Below are positions 2,835 to 26,581 of a stretch of DNA of 51,067 nucleotides, in pieces. The stretch comes from Bacteroidota bacterium (GTDB lineage Bacteria; Bacteroidota; Bacteroidia; NS11-12g; UBA9320), in assembly GCA_018700895.1 (NCBI GenBank), contig JABIUV010000041.1, positions 1 to 51,067 on the forward strand. Direction: 5' to 3'. The number at the start of each line of letters is the position of its first letter. Position 1 is the stretch's first letter. Position numbers and translations under genes: made by a program. The notes under the pieces are model-generated. The model had not been told where the DNA came from. It saw only the letters and a program-made list of their open reading frames with translations, and made no database searches.

Positions 2835-3290
2835 CTATCGTACTTCAAATAATTCAATATCAAATGCCAATACAGCATTTTCGGGTATTCGACTACTTGG
2901 CGGGTTGCTACCATAAGCCAAATGTGATGGTATAAAAAGTCTTCCTGCACCACCTTCTTTCAGTTTTGGAATACCTATTTGCCAACCTTGAATTACCCCA
3001 GAAAGCGGAAAAGTAGACTGCTCACCTCTATCATAGCTACTATCAAAGATATCGCCATTGAGTAAGTATCCCTTGTAATGTACGGTAACGTCATTGGCTA
3101 TATTGGGCTGTGCTCCAGTTCCCTCTGTAGTGATAATATAGTACAGGCCTTCTTCGGTTTTTTCGGCAGTGAGATTATTGTCAGCCAGGTATTGTCTGAT
3201 TTCCTCGTCATTGGCCATAGTGAAATCTTCTTCCTTGCAGCTGCATAGTGTGAGCGTAAATAGTGCTAGTGCGATTATAAATTTATTCAT
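2835..3290 (-). CDS. FKBP-type peptidyl-prolyl isomerase lipoprotein
   Basis: Catalyses cis-trans isomerisation of prolyl bonds, probably in the periplasm while anchored to a membrane. The 151-aa product has a lipoprotein signal ending in LCSC (Cys18), a linker, then one FKBP domain from about residue 60 to the end: VTVHYKGYLLNGDIFDSS, a central PLSGVIQGWQIGIPKLKEG loop, LFIPSHLAYG and a closing AFDIELFEV strand. These match the active-site elements of the family (YxG, FD, GVIxGW, IP..LAYG). It lies three bases downstream of the decayed DUF5723 gene and three bases upstream of the 40-aa membrane protein, so it was the distal part of a lipoprotein/DUF5723/FKBP operon whose first two genes are broken. 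Confidence 0.94.
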   Translation of the reverse strand: MNKFIIALALFTLTLCSCKEEDFTMANDEEIRQYLADNNLTAEKTEEGLYYIITTEGTGAQPNIANDVTVHYKGYLLNGDIFDSSYDRGEQSTFPLSGVIQGWQIGIPKLKEGGAGRLFIPSHLAYGSNPPSSRIPENAVLAFDIELFEVR

Positions 3291-3293
3291 TCT

Positions 3294-3691
3294 TTACTCC
3301 TCTTTTTTATTTTTCTTCTTGCAGCCAAAGGTATAATTCCAACCAAACCTTATATCTACTGTTTTTGCTTCTGGCGAAATTACACCTAATAAATTATCTC
3401 CCACAAAATAAAATTGCTCAGCTTATCCAAATCTATCGAGTATTTTCCACGTGAATTTGGTACTGAGGTCTCATCAATCTGAGCGAGGCTAAGTTTACTA
3501 CTTGAGTACGATATGTTAGTGGAAGACATCAAGGGCGTACCAAGGTGCCATTTACAATCAGGGATAAGAGCAGGATTGGTACTAAGTCGCTGGGGTAGCG
3601 GTGCCATATTGTAGAGTGTCAATTTATTCTGAGCCAGTGAAGCTCCAGTACAAATCAGTAAAATTATCGTGGTTAAAATTTTATTTTTCAT
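3294..3691 (-). pseudogene. DUF5723-family protein, internally deleted
   Basis: Remnant of a secreted DUF5723 protein, a Bacteroidota family usually about 450-500 aa and predicted to be a beta-barrel. The N-terminus is intact: signal peptide to about residue 20 (GASLAQ), then LTLYNMAPLPQRLSTNPALIPD, the characteristic start of the family. After about residue 95 (KLSNFILWE) the frame hits a stop at 3386. In a second frame, immediately downstream, the original C-terminus survives from about 3425 to 3294 as DNLLGVISPEAK, then VDIRFGWNYTFGC and a lysine-rich end. About 350 central codons are therefore missing, with the join out of frame near 3410-3425. The residual ORF could still yield a secreted 101-aa peptide, but not a barrel. 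Its ATG overlaps the TGA of the decayed lipoprotein upstream. Confidence 0.85.
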
Positions 3692-4186
3692 TCGTCTAAG
3701 TATTGTTCTACTAGTACTTCTGCTTGCACCCCTATTTGTATTAGTATAGTATAATCATTGAAAAATTTAACATCAGATTGGCTGCCGTTTTCAAAAAAGG
3801 GGTATCAAACGTAGCACATATTCTAATCTTATTAGCTTTTAGTGTTTTGCTTATTCGCGATTTATCTGTGAGGATGTCTGTTGTTTTTGGATTTGCCGCT
3901 ACTACTCGCCCATCAGAACCTACGTTAGCCAAAGGTAGAATTAACTGATCGGTGATAATTAGTAAGTTGAGTATCGTATTAGAGATACTATCTTCACAAT
4001 ATAACTGTGCAGACACGTCTACAGTAAATCAGTCAAACTTAAGTTGGAGTATGCCAAAGGGACTGCGATGATAGGGTCCCATTGTATTGCGTCTACATCA
4101 TTTATCTTGTTTACCGTCTCTCGTATATCGGAGAAACAACCAGAAAGTAATGAAGCAATTGCAAGAGAGGTTATTAATTTCTTCAT
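3688..4186 (-). pseudogene. Outer-membrane lipoprotein partner of DUF5723 protein, deleted and frameshifted
   Basis: Three frame segments in order reconstruct one decayed lipoprotein. (1) From ATG at 4186: a lipoprotein signal ending SLLSGC, then IQWDPIIAVPLAYSNLSLTD, a segment typical of Bacteroidota lipoproteins paired with DUF5723 genes; it stops at DLL. (2) A second frame from about 4025 to 3797: LYCEDSISNTILNLL, LPLANVGSDGRVV and ICATFDTP. (3) A third frame after a T6 tract (A6 on the plus strand, 3793-3798): GSQSDVKFFNDYTILIQIG and a C-terminus QYLDE ending in a TGA that overlaps the next ATG. The first junction hides a large deletion (relatives are several hundred residues); the second is corrected by one extra T. 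It was clearly co-transcribed with the DUF5723 gene. Confidence 0.8.
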
Positions 4187-4188
4187 AT

Positions 4189-4196
4189 TATATTTG
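4189..4196 (+). promoter_or_regulatory. Candidate Bacteroidota -7 box for DUF423/sixA
   Basis: TATATTTG matches the Bacteroidota sigma-A -7 consensus TAnnTTTG exactly and lies 24 bases before the DUF423 ATG. It sits just outside the start of the divergent lipoprotein pseudogene. No good -33 TTG is seen at 17-23 bases, so confidence is moderate. Confidence 0.4.
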
Positions 4197-4220
4197 TTTC
4201 ATAAGGTAACAATAATAAAC

Positions 4221-4613
4221 ATGAATAATCAGAGTACGCATTTACACCTTCGTGTTGGAGCTGCATTGTGCGGTTTATATGTAGTTTTAGGTGCATTTGG
4301 AGCACATGGGCTTGAGCATAAGTTAGCCGCAAATCAGTTAACAACATACCACACTGCACTTCGCTATCTGATTATCCACGCACTAGCATTAATCATTACA
4401 AACTTCACATATGCCCATTGGGGAACAGTAAAGCGGTATTCTAATCTCTTTTTTTATCTAGGGATGCTACTCTTTTCGGGTTCGTTGTTAGTACACGCTA
4501 CTAGAGATTTATGGGGTTTAGATGTCAATTTATTTGCGTTAACGGCACCCATAGGCGGGTTATGTTACATCATAGGCTGGGTGTTTTATTTGCTAAAAAT
4601 AGGAAAGCAATGA
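4221..4613 (+). CDS. DUF423 family membrane protein
   Basis: A 130-aa inner-membrane protein of the DUF423 (YgdD) family, whose function is unknown. Four hydrophobic segments are visible: about residues 12-30 (LCGLYVVLGAFGAHGLEH, the family signature), 45-62, 72-90 and 100-125. The start is ATG at 4221; the frame is open further upstream, but that extension covers the divergent pseudogene and lacks family similarity. The stop overlaps the sixA start (ATGA, 4610-4613), so the two are coupled. Confidence 0.92.
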   Translation: MNNQSTHLHLRVGAALCGLYVVLGAFGAHGLEHKLAANQLTTYHTALRYLIIHALALIITNFTYAHWGTVKRYSNLFFYLGMLLFSGSLLVHATRDLWGLDVNLFALTAPIGGLCYIIGWVFYLLKIGKQ

Positions 4614-9005: not shown

Positions 9006-9181
9006 TAGGTGTAACCTGTAGCCTCTTGTGGTTGAGTGACAAGTAGCTGCATTTGAGGAAATGAAACAGCTTCGATGTGGTCAGTTTGGTTATTCTGGTC
9101 TTGCCGATTTGTGTTGACTGTCCACGTTCCGTTGAGCAGCACTTCCTCTATTCTATGTGCAAGTTGCTCTGCTTGAGTCAT
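9002..9181 (-). pseudogene. N-terminal remnant of a DinB/DUF1572-like protein
   Basis: A 59-aa frame whose ATG overlaps the murB stop (ATGA, 9178-9181). The first 28 residues, including LAHRIEEVLLNGTW and VNTNRQDQ, resemble the start of Bacteroidota DinB-like (DUF1572) proteins, which have LxxRxxEVLLxGxWxxNTN and run to about 150 aa. The rest does not resemble the family and no continuation is found before the convergent DUF1573 gene. I therefore read it as a truncated remnant that may still be translated behind murB. A genuine short gene of unknown function is the alternative. Confidence 0.5.
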
Positions 9182-10181
9182 ACTACATTTACCTCCATAT
9201 CTAAAGCTATTTGATAACGCTTCCATACACTTTTTTGAATATCCTTAGCAAGTGCAAAAACCTCCGCTCCGTTTGCATTGCCATAGTTTACAAGGACGAG
9301 AGCTTGCTTGGCATGACTGCCGGTGTTGCCTATGCGTTTTCCTTTCCACCCGAGACTTTCTATAAGCCACCCCGCTGGAACTTTTACCTTGCCATCTAAA
9401 GTTGGATAGCTTTTATTTCAGGAAACTTAGCTTTGAGCGTATCAAAATGTGCTTGTTCTATGATTGGGTTTTTAAAAAAACTACCACTATTGCCTAGTTC
9501 CGTAGGGTCAGGTAATTTACTCTGGCGAATAGCTATCACAGCATTACTCACATCTCGAATGGTGGGAGTGGTAACTCCATTTTGGTGAAGATAGTTTTCT
9601 ATATCACCATAACTTGTATTGAGTAGATGATTTTTTTTGGTAAGACGGATACCTATTTCAGTGATGAAATACTGACCTTTCGCATCCTTTTTGAAAATAC
9701 TATCTCTATAACCAAATTTACATTCAGCATTGGTTAAGTAAATAGTCTCGCGGGTTTTAAGATTTACGACTTTTACATAAGTGAGTACATCTTTTATTTC
9801 CTTGCCGTATGCTCCAATATTCTGCATTGGAGCGGCACCTACAGACCCAGGAATTAGACTCATATTCTCAATGCCACCGTAGTTGTTGTCAACACACCAT
9901 AGTACCAGATCGTGCCAGTTTTCGCCACTAGCTACTGCGAGTTCTATGTCATGGTCGTCTTCTGATACGGTGCATATACCTCGGGTTTTATTGATGACCA
10001 CCGTACAATTTACATCTTGGGTTAGCAGGATATTACTTCCTCCTCCTATGAAAAGACAACTTTCTAGCTGAGGAATAACTTCCAGCTGTTCTAATGCGGT
10101 CAGCAATACGATTTCCTTTGCCTCTGCTGCTATGCCAAAGGTGTTATACCTTTGTAAAGATTTGGTGTTTATGCCACTCAC
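9178..10181 (-). pseudogene. murB: UDP-N-acetylenolpyruvoylglucosamine reductase MurB, single-base frameshift
   Basis: MurB reduces UDP-GlcNAc-enolpyruvate to UDP-MurNAc in peptidoglycan synthesis, using FAD and NADPH. From 10181 the frame encodes 261 aa: NTFGIAAEAKEIV, the FAD-binding FIGGGSNILL, SLIPGSVGAAPMQNIGAYG, KFGYRDSIFK and the catalytic-Ser segment NSGSFFKNP. It then stops at 9396 after FPEIKA. Another frame continues immediately as PTLDGKVKVPAGWLIESLGW, GNTGSHAKQALVLVNYGNA and ends DMEVNVV at 9178. One missing base between GC and TAT near 9408-9412 restores KAYPTLDG and a normal 334-aa protein. The truncated product would lack most of the C-terminal domain and its catalytic Glu. 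Since murB is normally essential, sequence error, a second copy elsewhere, or true decay must be distinguished. Confidence 0.9.
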
Positions 10182-10209
10182 AATGCAATATTAATGCGGT
10201 GGTATGGGA

Positions 10210-10217
10210 TATATTTG
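10210..10217 (+). promoter_or_regulatory. Candidate -7 box for the cytochrome lipoprotein
   Basis: TATATTTG, an exact TAnnTTTG match, lies 26 bases before the ATG at 10244 and just upstream of the divergent murB start. No clear -33 element is visible. Confidence 0.4.
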
Positions 10218-10243
10218 TATTTTTCCCAACAAATAGACATACC

Positions 10244-10612
10244 ATGAAAAAAATAGGTACACTAATCTTTATAATTGTAGTTTTAGCTTCTGCTTGTCAA
10301 GACGATGATAAAGATGTAATAATCACGACGCCACAAGAACTTTGCGATAGTTTAGATATACATTACACACAGGATGTGGCTCATGTTTTAGCAAATGCTG
10401 GCTGCTCTGGGTCCTATTGTCACGGTGGTGGATCAGGCGGTGTAAACCTAAGCGATTGGGCTAACACCAAGACTGCAGCAGAAAGTCCTAAATTCCTGAA
10501 AGCGGTAAAACATGAACTAAGTGCAAGCCCGATGCCAAAAGGCGGGCAAAAATTATCTGATGCCGATATAGAAATATTGGAGTGCTGGATAAAAAGCGGA
10601 AGTAGAGAGTAG
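10244..10612 (+). CDS. Small c-type cytochrome-like lipoprotein with CX4CH motif
   Basis: A 122-aa lipoprotein (signal ending LASAC, Cys17) with a single planctomycete/Bacteroidota-type cytochrome domain. The heme-binding site is GCSGSYCHGG, that is C-x4-C-H rather than the standard C-x2-C-H; this longer spacing is the usual form in this family. A distal Met ligand is likely in the SASPMPKGG segment, followed by LSDADIEILECWIKSG, the C-terminal helix typical of the family. It is therefore probably an envelope-anchored electron-transfer protein, though heme attachment is unproved. It starts divergently from murB; the frame upstream of 10244 is open but lacks a signal peptide. It ends directly against the convergent mnmD-like gene with no gap. 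Confidence 0.85.
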   Translation: MKKIGTLIFIIVVLASACQDDDKDVIITTPQELCDSLDIHYTQDVAHVLANAGCSGSYCHGGGSGGVNLSDWANTKTAAESPKFLKAVKHELSASPMPKGGQKLSDADIEILECWIKSGSRE

Positions 10613-16754: not shown

Positions 16755-17373
16755 ATGGTACGCTATGTTATGATAAATTGCCTATGTATGGTTGCTTTCA
16801 TGAGTTTCGGTCAGGTAGATTCTATCCCCAAAAGAAATTAAAAGTTGAGGTACTCTTTAATGTTACGGATGCACTAGGAAGGGGAGCGGGCAATAGTGGT
16901 TCTAACTCTGTATTAGAGGATCCTATCGTAATAGGGGCGAAATTTTTATCTCAATACAAAGCAAAGGGAATGTGTGTGAATTGTCATACCCTTGGGGCTA
17001 ATTTTAGCCGTGGTGGCGGTTATATGAACCATTTTCACCTATACGAGGTACTGCCAATATAGGATTGGATGTGGTATACGAAGATGAAGGAGTAGGAGGC
17101 GGTAGTTTTCGAATCCCAAACTTAAAAAATGTAGCTCTTACAGGTCCATATATGCACGATGGTCGCTATGCGACATTGGATGAGGTGATAGAGCATTACA
17201 ATAGTGGAATACAGAATACCAAGGAGCTTGATCCTATTTTTAAAGATGGATCTGGCAATATCACACGTTTAAATCTTACATACGTGGAGAAGAAAGCCCT
17301 TGTAGCATTCTTAAATACGCTGACAGATAATACTTTTATCGCAGATCCCAAATTTTCAAACCCTTTTAATTAG
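16755..17373 (+). pseudogene. Di-heme cytochrome c peroxidase (MauG/CCP family), deleted and frameshifted
   Basis: Broken gene assembled from three frames. A signal peptide starts at ATG 16755 (MVRYVMINCLCMVAFMSFGQ) and stops after 25 residues. A second frame carries IVIGAKFLSQYKAKG and MCVNCHTLG, the second c-type heme site, then stops at 17062. A third frame continues GTANIGLDVVYEDEG, IPNLKNVALTGPYMHDGR (the conserved C-terminal peroxidase signature) and ALVAFLNTLTD to 17373. The N-terminal heme domain, about 200 residues, is missing between the first two pieces. The second junction falls in a TATA tract at 17021-17024 and is corrected by removing two bases. No functional peroxidase can be made. 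Confidence 0.85.
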
Positions 17374-22163: not shown

Positions 22164-22205
22164 TAGACTATGATGCCGGTGCTAACCAAAACTATAGTCT
22201 ACTAA
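22160..22205. terminator. Shared inverted repeat across two convergent stop codons
   Basis: Perfect 12-base arms, TTAGTAGACTAT (22160-22171) and ATAGTCTACTAA (22194-22205), flank a 22-base loop. The left arm includes the TAG of the barrel gene and the right arm the TAG of the convergent 1459-aa gene, so each gene ends in the same hairpin. A bidirectional transcription end is the likely role; there is no strong U-run. Confidence 0.5.
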
Positions 22206-25200
22206 TCTAGTTTACTCAAAAAACTACTTACAGTCCTTGGACTAGCGGTACGTATCCTAAATTTACCTTTATTCATTTTCGGTCCTTTCTCCTTCAGTAA
22301 TGCATTGAATTCTTTGTCGGTACTGCCTACTGTTACGCTGCCTAGGTAATAGTCGATATAGAACCAATCGTACTTGGTTACTTCCATATAGAAGGTGTAC
22401 CGCGTGGAGCTACGTCTTTTTGATATAGCTATGCGTGCATCTACTTGCTTATTGACTTGCTTACCGCTTATGGTAGCTATATGTATAGGATCGTAGCTAA
22501 TGAACTGTTTTCTTAGCGGAGAGTAATGCAATGATATGTTGCTAAAGAACATCGTTCTATCCAGAGGACCAGAAGGTTTTATTATGCCTAATGCACTGGC
22601 ATCTTCCAAAGCCTTATCTAGTTTTTTGTCATCCAAGTATTCGGACATAGCTTTCTTGGTCATTTCGCTATTGTTATCTGCCAGCGAGTTGCCAGCTCCA
22701 CTTTCGTTTATGACAACCGCCATTCTGTCCAGGCATTCTTGGGGCAACTTAATATTTAAAGCCAGAATACTATTAATTATAAAACTGGAATCAGAAGGTA
22801 GTTTTCGGATATTTCCGGCCATTAAGCCATTAAAGTTTTCATCCACTTCCATTCCGAAATCAATCTTACCTTCACTATACACCTCTTTTGTGGCGTCATT
22901 GTATGAGAGGTAACTTCCACGCATACCGTTTTCCAGTAGTTTCATACTGTCGCCTACATAGAATGTGGTGTTATTTTCGTCATAAAAGAATACACCTGTA
23001 TCAACTGTTAAGTCTAAGTCGGCATAACTACGTTTAAAGTTGAACATTGTAGGATATATATGTATGCTGTCATTTGCTATACTTACAGAAGCGTACATTT
23101 TACGCCTATCTTCATTAAATATCTCTTCGGCAGGAATGATCACATTCTGTGGGTCGGGTTGACCACTATATCTGAACCAAGAACTTGGATATAGATCGAG
23201 AGAATGTAGCGGTTTTACGTATCCGTTAAATACAAGGTCCTCTTCATTACTACGTATTTCGGTTTTCCCTTTGTACCCAATTTTGGGGCTCACGGCAAAC
23301 CCAATAGAATCTTGAACAAAACCAGATATTAGCAAGGTCGTATCACCCTTTCCCTTTACCCTCATCTTGTCGAAATATAATACTTGACCTGTGTTATTCT
23401 TATCCTTGTATTTGTAATAGCCATTTCCTCCTATAGCATACCTTCCTGTAATTTTTAGCTTTGTATCATATAGATAATGGTATTTGTCACTTCTGTTGGC
23501 AATTAGCTTGCTTTGCTCTAGTGGCTGCATATCTGCATCTTCTTTGATTTCTACATTGCCATCTTTAGGAAATGCTCTACTATCTGCTACATCAATATAA
23601 GGGACATTGTTGGCATATATAATTCCCGCTTCAATGTCGAAGAGTGCCTTTGTACTTTCAAATCGCAAGCCCTGTTGCTCGTACTTTGTGCTTACAAAAT
23701 ATGATTTCTCTTTAGCCAGTTGGGGTCCTTTATTGAGTTCAATGGTTTGGGCTTTCATATCCCACTTGTACTCATCCATAGTGCTAGCGTATGCATTGTA
23801 AGGAAGCTTGGTAAGCTTACCTTTTTCGTTCTGTATAAAGTCACCTAAATGCGTGGTAAAGTCAACATCTGCATTCATGTTTTCTGATGCAAAGGCAATT
23901 TTATCGTTCGTAATAGCACCTATCTCAATAGCTGCAACATTAGCGGTTACGCGATTGGGTTTGTAGCGGATATCTTGAGAAGTCATTTTGGCGTTGTCCC
24001 ATTCTAATATTCCACTCCCTGATAATTCTTGACTAGTTTGTACTAGATTTCCTGTGAACTGTTGATTATCGCGTAGTACGCTTACTGTATGGCCGTTTGT
24101 ATGTATGAGCATAGAATCGTGGTCGGGTATCCACTTGGCTAGTACATCAGTAGCAGAGACATTTGGATATTTCCCGTTTTCGGTAAGGGTATATGTCTCG
24201 GCAGCCGCGGTTGTATACTTGGGTGTCATTAATATATCTTGTGAAGCAAGCACCCCCCCCTCAAAATCGATATCACCTTTCGCGGTAAAACCCTCTTCAC
24301 TAAGTTTTATGGCTATATCACCCGATCCTTTGCCTCCATACATAGGGTAACTTGCTGCGGGCTTTTCGAAACCGAGAGAGTAGTCATCCATAATTTTTGC
24401 TTCGTATCGGAATTCTGGAATTATACCACCAGATTTAAATATTCCAGGGAAACTTAAGTCCTCTGTCTCAAAGTTATCCATATTCTCTATGGTAAAAGGG
24501 TCTACTTCAAAATAAAAATCTTCCTTATCATAAGCACCGTTGTGAATGCTCGCTTTGTCATACGTTATCTTGGATCCTTTTTTACTAGTAAATCGTGGGT
24601 ACTCTGAAAAATCTTCTAAACCTGATTTGTTATTGGATTTATCTATTTCAAGCGTTCCGTTTATATCGGTGATAGCTGATTTTACCGCGACAAAACCCGA
24701 TTTACCAGAGCGGTCTTCGGTATAAATTACCATTTCTTCAATATGGTCACTCGAAATGTCAAAGGTGAAATAATCAAACTCAAAATTATCTGCGTAGAAA
24801 TCAAATTTCCCTGCAGTAACTTTCCCTCCAAATGTCATTCTACGTTTATGCTTAAGTGTAACCATTTGCTCGTGAGGATATACATATACACTCTGACTAT
24901 CGCTTAGTCTAAAGGCTCTCACACCCTCTATAATAAAGGTATTATTGATGAGGTTTAAAAATGCATTAGGACGTGCACTTATCTGTGATGAAAATCTTAT
25001 GACGTCGTAATCTGCTAGTTTTAAGTGAGATAGTACTGCATGATCCAGTTTTGTTCTTATTTTGATACTGTCTGATGCAGGGTTAAAAAAGAGGTATCCA
25101 AGATCTGCCAATTGTACAATTTGAGGTTTTAAGTACATCTGTTTACTACCCATCCAATTAGCATATTCAGTAAATGTAAACTCACGTTTGCGATGTTTAA

Positions 25201-26581
25201 TTACAAAATCTCTCATTTTACTTAGGGGATGGTATTTGAGCATGCCACGGGGTATCTTTTCATAGCGTATCTCTTTATAAAAATCTTTAGACTCCATAAA
25301 AGCCTTGCTGTCATTCCCCGTCATATCAAATGTGATTTGTGGGAGTTCTAGGTCCCATATCACTTGGTCCACAAAGATGTCTATCTGCTGATCATTGTTA
25401 AAAAGGGGTGCTTGCTCTAGGCCATTTTTACCTCGAGTCATTATGAGTTGCTTTCGGTCCATATTAAGATTGAAACGCAGCTTTGGATGAAAAATGGTGC
25501 CACTATCCGTTAAGATTATAATTTCTGTAGATAGTGCATTTATCCTGTCGTCCTTGAGGCTGAAATAGTCAGATTTGGCAATTACCCTTAGTTTACCTTT
25601 GTAGAAAATCTGGACAGATGAGGGATTTGTCGGCGTACCGTTTGCTATGATTTCTGCACCCTTCATAGCATATCCTCCCTTGAATTTTACTCTACCATCT
25701 AAGTATGATCCCAACTCTAAGTCTGAGGTGAAAGATGTAAACTGGGGGAATTGAGATTTTGATAAATCTACTTTATTAATATTATCGGCACTAGATACTC
25801 TATCTTTAAAATTGCCATAAAGTGGTTGGTCTAAGAAGTCTTTGTTTTGAAAGAGTACCGTATCTATTTCTATTTCTCCTCGGTCAAATCTTAAGGTGTA
25901 GCTTCCCTCTATTTCAGCATAAATATTGTCTGGGCTGAAGCCCACACGTTCCCAGGTTACTTTGCCTTTGGTTCCTTTCCACTGATCTGTATCTAAAAAA
26001 TAGCTGCCGCTGGTATTATATATTTTTAGTTCATCTACTAATGCTTCGCAAGTTAGGTCGATATTCTTGAAGGCTATTCGCACTCTGTTGTTTTCAAATA
26101 AGAATCGATAATTGTCAGAACTTGCGTACCACTCTTTAGATTTAGATACATATATCGTATTGTCCTTGAATAAATTACGAGACGCGGTCATTAGAGTAAT
26201 AAAGGTCTTATTCCCAGATTTTATAGCTGGCACAAGGGCTTTCGACCAACTGATATACTTAGGTTCATCAATAGAGTCTTTGGCGTATAGCATCGTCTCC
26301 GTGAATAGCATGAAATGTGCAACTTTCATCTCGTTAAAGAGCATTTGGTTGGTAACGTTTATGATATTACGTTGCTCAGGTTCTACAAACTTAGCGGAGT
26401 CCCATTTTTCGGTAAAGGTCTTTATAATATCCTTACTATCAGGCGAGTCGTCCGTTTTTAGAAAATCCGTAAACTCCTCTATAAAAACATCTGGCTTACG
26501 CGAAAAAGAACGCGGCTGGGCAAAAGCCGACACAGTGACAAGAAGTAAAGTGAATGATAATAGGTATGATCGTAATCTCAT
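22202..26581 (-). CDS. Very large secreted protein of unknown function (1459 aa)
   Basis: A signal peptide (ends SAFAQ, residue 22) precedes about 180 mostly helical residues, then more than 1200 residues of short beta-strands separated by polar turns, with many KGKT/DG/NG-type turns and recurring strands such as ARPNAFLNLINNTFIIEGVR and GFVQDSIGFAVSPKIGYKGK. This periodic beta pattern resembles LptA/OstA or TamB-like stacked folds more than a globular enzyme, but I see no named domain. It begins one base after prmA and lies in the same direction as lptD, so an envelope role is plausible (inference). A run of eight C at 24253-24260 (G8 in the coding strand) sits within the frame. Full length appears intact. 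Confidence 0.85.
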   Translation of the reverse strand: MRLRSYLLSFTLLLVTVSAFAQPRSFSRKPDVFIEEFTDFLKTDDSPDSKDIIKTFTEKWDSAKFVEPEQRNIINVTNQMLFNEMKVAHFMLFTETMLYAKDSIDEPKYISWSKALVPAIKSGNKTFITLMTASRNLFKDNTIYVSKSKEWYASSDNYRFLFENNRVRIAFKNIDLTCEALVDELKIYNTSGSYFLDTDQWKGTKGKVTWERVGFSPDNIYAEIEGSYTLRFDRGEIEIDTVLFQNKDFLDQPLYGNFKDRVSSADNINKVDLSKSQFPQFTSFTSDLELGSYLDGRVKFKGGYAMKGAEIIANGTPTNPSSVQIFYKGKLRVIAKSDYFSLKDDRINALSTEIIILTDSGTIFHPKLRFNLNMDRKQLIMTRGKNGLEQAPLFNNDQQIDIFVDQVIWDLELPQITFDMTGNDSKAFMESKDFYKEIRYEKIPRGMLKYHPLSKMRDFVIKHRKREFTFTEYANWMGSKQMYLKPQIVQLADLGYLFFNPASDSIKIRTKLDHAVLSHLKLADYDVIRFSSQISARPNAFLNLINNTFIIEGVRAFRLSDSQSVYVYPHEQMVTLKHKRRMTFGGKVTAGKFDFYADNFEFDYFTFDISSDHIEEMVIYTEDRSGKSGFVAVKSAITDINGTLEIDKSNNKSGLEDFSEYPRFTSKKGSKITYDKASIHNGAYDKEDFYFEVDPFTIENMDNFETEDLSFPGIFKSGGIIPEFRYEAKIMDDYSLGFEKPAASYPMYGGKGSGDIAIKLSEEGFTAKGDIDFEGGVLASQDILMTPKYTTAAAETYTLTENGKYPNVSATDVLAKWIPDHDSMLIHTNGHTVSVLRDNQQFTGNLVQTSQELSGSGILEWDNAKMTSQDIRYKPNRVTANVAAIEIGAITNDKIAFASENMNADVDFTTHLGDFIQNEKGKLTKLPYNAYASTMDEYKWDMKAQTIELNKGPQLAKEKSYFVSTKYEQQGLRFESTKALFDIEAGIIYANNVPYIDVADSRAFPKDGNVEIKEDADMQPLEQSKLIANRSDKYHYLYDTKLKITGRYAIGGNGYYKYKDKNNTGQVLYFDKMRVKGKGDTTLLISGFVQDSIGFAVSPKIGYKGKTEIRSNEEDLVFNGYVKPLHSLDLYPSSWFRYSGQPDPQNVIIPAEEIFNEDRRKMYASVSIANDSIHIYPTMFNFKRSYADLDLTVDTGVFFYDENNTTFYVGDSMKLLENGMRGSYLSYNDATKEVYSEGKIDFGMEVDENFNGLMAGNIRKLPSDSSFIINSILALNIKLPQECLDRMAVVINESGAGNSLADNNSEMTKKAMSEYLDDKKLDKALEDASALGIIKPSGPLDRTMFFSNISLHYSPLRKQFISYDPIHIATISGKQVNKQVDARIAISKRRSSTRYTFYMEVTKYDWFYIDYYLGSVTVGSTDKEFNALLKEKGPKMNKGKFRIRTASPRTVSSFLSKLD

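Follow-up and report, generated by a model that had tools for sequence, protein, structure and literature searches.

The lipoprotein and DUF5723 genes of the window (the whole 51,067-nt stretch of DNA analyzed, which makes up the whole of C40, one of the 59 contigs of a 2.42-Mb Bacteroidota genome) are very probably two adjacent pseudogenes, produced by two separate internal deletions on the branch leading to this species, in an operon that is old and conserved in the family. Pseudogenes formed by internal deletion are common, and the event is ordinary gene decay of a known kind, in a module that is unusually conserved and unstudied; a literature search found no paper naming DUF5723. Almost all genomes of the family keep the lipoprotein–DUF5723 pair, which makes the species a natural knock-out of what appears to be a conserved surface module, and comparison with its sisters could help to find the module's role. 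A single draft assembly of one uncultured species was the sole source for the locus, and a search for a second genome of the same species found none.

Remnants of the two genes

The remnants were mapped by tblastn of full-length relatives onto window positions 3291–4220. Five collinear fragments were found, three from the lipoprotein gene, each in a different frame, followed by two from the DUF5723 gene, again in different frames (Table 1). The first-pass annotation had described both genes as keeping their ends and losing their centers, with the ends in differing frames and the ATGA coupling preserved, and was correct in all of this, including the coordinates. The ATGA overlap between the lipoprotein stop and the DUF5723 start lies at 3688–3691. 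The FKBP gene, which had been called intact, is indeed complete, and its alignment with relatives covers the whole length. The intact counterparts at the same locus in related genomes are 538–541 aa (lipoprotein) and 448–463 aa (DUF5723, PF18990), and the window copies of both lack most of the frame. FKBP and DUF423 are 930 nt apart in the window; in G010 and G015, both sister species, the interval measures 3040 nt.

Table 1. Features of the operon and its edges in the window
Feature	Position	Strand	Evidence
FKBP-type lipoprotein, intact, 151 aa, last operon gene	2835-3290	-	Pfam FKBP_C E 2.5e-23
DUF5723 pseudogene 3' remnant, codons ~414-454 + stop	3294-3421	-	tblastn 46-60% identity; profile E 2.7e-11
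Join 2 (DUF5723), CTGAGCAAT, putative 9-nt direct repeat	3413-3421	-	
DUF5723 pseudogene 5' remnant, codons 1-~92, signal peptide	3413-3691	-	tblastn 42-51% identity; profile E 8e-28
Lipoprotein pseudogene 3' remnant part 2, codons ~506-538 + stop	3688-3795	-	tblastn, profile
T6 run, site of lipoprotein frame shift (net +2 or -1)	3793-3798	-	
Lipoprotein pseudogene 3' remnant part 1, codons ~429-506	3795-4028	-	tblastn 48-53% identity; profile E 3e-23
Join 1 (lipoprotein), TTTACTG, putative imperfect direct repeat, one mismatch	4022-4028	-	
Lipoprotein pseudogene 5' remnant, codons 1-55, lipobox LLSGC	4022-4186	-	tblastn 41-55% identity; profile E 3.4e-16
DUF423 gene, intact, divergent, marks upstream edge	4221-4613	+	Pfam DUF423 E 5.4e-19

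The open frame of the lipoprotein 5' remnant stops at a TAG (4019–4021) created by the join. The frame is broken a second time at the T6 run, as had been noticed from the sequence; the lesion was then described as affecting one base, which holds only if it is a deletion. By itself, this lesion could be a sequence error. The open frame of the DUF5723 5' remnant reaches position 3386, giving 101 aa that score 20.2 bits against Pfam, under the 26.8 cut-off. The DUF5723 proteins of intact relatives match PF18990 end to end (E 3.6e-80), and only ~37 model positions, at one end, were matched by the window copy.

Both 5' remnants retain a start codon, a signal peptide and their coupling, and they break just 2 of 32 invariant columns, which might suggest that the short frames (a 55-aa lipopeptide and a 101-aa secreted peptide) act as novel small proteins. 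However, one of the new ends is a stop codon created at the join and the other a tail read out of frame, and short intact versions of either gene, sought in 38 genomes of the family, were found in none, the intact relatives all being full length. A new function for these peptides is most improbable, and we treat the fragments as remnants of decay.

The rate of decay was assessed by a relative-rate comparison with G010 as the sister and G011 as the outgroup, counting own-unique amino-acid changes. The lipoprotein remnants had 30 such changes versus 14 in G010, and the DUF5723 remnants 23 versus 11, a difference that was not significant in any comparison; FKBP showed no excess, with 8 in each. 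The remnants changed at up to ~2x the rate of the sister, most clearly for the lipoprotein, while FKBP was not faster. The excess is modest and varies with the species compared, being weaker against G007; the lipoprotein was accelerated in most comparisons. Of 62 columns without variation among the relatives, 7 are broken in the remnants, compared with 0 of 48 for FKBP. Most of the remnants' divergence is still at third codon positions, suggesting that constraint persisted along much of the branch until the loss. The loss may be recent, or some constraint may be left on the 5' stubs.

Joins and a possible deletion mechanism

Relative to G010, ~1126 nt are missing from the lipoprotein gene and ~963 nt from the DUF5723 gene. 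Short direct repeats were looked for at the deletion ends, and each join appears to sit in a short stretch homologous to both sides, of ~7 nt (one mismatch) and 9 nt, respectively, a pattern that slippage between short direct repeats would leave. At join 1, the left reading is GAT TTA CTG (D-L-L) and the right reading TTT ACT GTA (F-T-V), where relatives have F-P-V. At join 2, CTGAGCAAT is read from the left as AAG CTG AGC AAT (K-L-S-N) and from the right as CT GAG CAA TTT, or (P)-E-Q-F. Neither the sisters nor any other living relative retains the ancestral repeat arms, so the arms were deduced from the overlap coding. When random deletions of equal size were placed in the sister operons, the ends shared at least 9 bases in 3–6 per 100,000 cases and at least 7 bases in 55–70 per 100,000.

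Bacterial pseudogenes can form by deletion between short direct repeats, through slipped-strand or RecA-independent deletion. The present case shares with known examples the gene-internal deletion, the joins in apparent short repeats, the seemingly drifting remnants and the intact neighbors, but differs in that two adjacent genes of one operon are affected, in a module that is elsewhere maintained throughout the family. Most likely, an operon encoding a lipoprotein, a predicted DUF5723 outer-membrane barrel and an FKBP lipoprotein would have lost the center of its first gene (~1.1 kb) and, in a separate deletion, that of its second (~1.0 kb), each presumably by slippage or end-joining between the short repeats. 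The remnants would have drifted faster afterwards, with the lipoprotein remnant bearing the frame lesion. FKBP expression could continue, as both the operon's 5' end and the FKBP gene itself have survived. Presumably the loss was tolerated either because the cell had ceased to need the module or because, once one gene was lost, the other was left idle.

We also considered whether an assembly or consensus error had produced the gaps. The locus is represented by one draft assembly, and a frame break in murB (9181–10259, - strand), near 9408–9414 relative to G010 and detaching the last ~77 residues, hints at single-base errors. MurB is usually essential, and the break could be either a real lesion or a sequence error; it is a warning that sequence errors may underlie single-base lesions such as the one at the T6 run. 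However, two separate ~1-kb gaps joined in apparent 7–9-nt repeats are atypical of assemblers, and the apparently faster substitution in the remnants takes time. An artifact is thus very improbable, and both deletions are very likely real.

Another explanation is a general deletional decay of the genome, in which case the losses would say nothing special about the module. The same 51-kb window does contain a peroxidase remnant in addition to the frame-broken murB, but most genes between 9 and 27 kb of the window are full length compared with G010, the genome is as large as those of its relatives, and the peroxidase locus is eroded in G010 too. General decay is a serious rival, although less likely than not. 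The peroxidase remnant consists of the last ~113 codons of a cytochrome-c-peroxidase-like gene (17032–17370, + strand), which encodes 367 aa in G007, and has a fragment of another upstream gene in front of it (16829–17370, + strand, for the whole); the eroded G010 locus is at C71:28278. The window also encodes a 1459-aa protein (22202–26581, - strand) that has no Pfam match and is 73% conserved in G010.

Conservation of the operon in the family

Profiles of the lipoprotein and DUF5723 were searched in 38 genomes from 10 genera. An FKBP ortholog was found in 16 of 18 relatives within the genus, and the gene order in these 16, where contigs reach, is pcnB-like, pRiA4b-like and miaA on one strand, followed on the opposite strand by FKBP, DUF5723 and a ~540-aa lipoprotein (absent in four), with DUF423, the same neighbor as in the window, and a histidine phosphatase beyond. 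A tree of seven flanking proteins grouped the species with the intact sisters G007, G010 and G015 (support 98/97). Outside the genus, the lipoprotein adjoins DUF5723 in 19 of 19 genomes, the DUF5723 match in G022 being partial. The window's genome is the only one of the 38 with a demonstrably broken DUF5723 gene.

Within the genus, a full-length lipoprotein is present in 12 relatives, and the locus is cut by contig ends in G006 and G008. Four closely related species (G001, G004, G017 and G018) have no lipoprotein at the locus and keep a 457-aa DUF5723; no full-length lipoprotein copy was found elsewhere in these four genomes. The tree requires two changes for lipoprotein loss, showing that the lipoprotein was lost at least twice, whereas a broken DUF5723 gene was seen only in the window's species. 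In the lipoprotein-less clade, a conserved ~45-codon frame replaces the lipoprotein between DUF5723 and DUF423 (L035, L037, L039 and L041). It resembles the start of the lipoprotein weakly (8.1 bits, a score exceeded by 1 of 2000 shuffles) and may tentatively be regarded as a lipoprotein remnant.

The first-pass annotation had proposed that the two proteins worked together and that their module had become dispensable. A link between them is supported by their adjacency across 10 genera, their translational overlap and the occurrence of a paralogous pair in G004 and G018, suggesting that the two proteins had a joint role at the cell surface. Mutual need is not supported, since the lipoprotein-less clade keeps DUF5723 and the two thus need not be lost together. 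It is plausible that the whole module became dispensable in this species, but that clade lost the lipoprotein only, and general decay is a rival reading, as other genes of the window are eroded too.

Possible nature of the intact module

In the BAM complex of Bacteroidota, BamG and BamH are described as core components, with BamG2–BamH2 as a pair of paralogs encoded in a putative operon (PMC12611786, PMC12578637). The lipoprotein–DUF5723 pair resembles these in that it appears to combine a FadL-type barrel with a lipoprotein that has two acidic residues among the first six after the cysteine. The barrel assignment comes from a low-confidence model (pLDDT 50) that resembles FadL-type and other 14-strand barrels. 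For surface lipoproteins, at least two acidic residues are expected within the six that follow the lipid-anchor cysteine (PMC12578637), and these are present: relatives' lipoproteins have C-IKDITD and C-VSEITD, the window remnant has C-FSDIRE and FKBP has C-KEEDFT.

The pair differs from BamG–BamH in the lack of a sequence match, a profile of 16 DUF5723 sequences having matched no solved chain, BamG included, at E up to 10. The structural match of the DUF5723 model to BamG (Z 17.9–18.7) is tied with those to FadL, CymA and OmpG, and kinship with BamG is unproven. Nor was BamH recovered in a fold search with the lipoprotein model, which gave only scattered beta-rich matches with TM < 0.3. A DUF4270 lipoprotein (G000:C27) and a weak Toluene_X match (G000:C59) were considered as BamH and BamG, respectively, and dropped, as no solved relative was found for either.

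The best solved relative of FKBP is the peptidyl-prolyl isomerase of the type 9 secretion translocon (6h3i chain B, E 3.1e-31), a lead to the possible nature of the module. We speculate, with considerable doubt, that the three operon products (lipoprotein, DUF5723 barrel and FKBP) are parts of an accessory complex at the surface, akin in design to the BamG–BamH canopy or the type 9 translocon, and that the two types of loss are natural stepwise dismantlings of it. If so, the losses in the genus, of the lipoprotein alone or of lipoprotein and barrel, would reveal which part depends on which.

Paralogous genes were also observed. Relocation of the lipoprotein within the window's genome was considered and rejected, the only candidate being a distant ~680-aa paralog on C6 that is common to many relatives. 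A second lipoprotein–DUF5723 pair, of 690 and 567 aa, is found in G004 (C18; L166 2499–6286) and also in G018 (C69; L167), and is absent from most relatives as far as seen. On C6 of the window's genome, the ~680-aa paralog is followed by a 401-aa outer-membrane protein, and the counterpart of this outer-membrane gene in G007 is split into frames of 134 and 272 aa (L164 3942–7170; L168 4743–7985).
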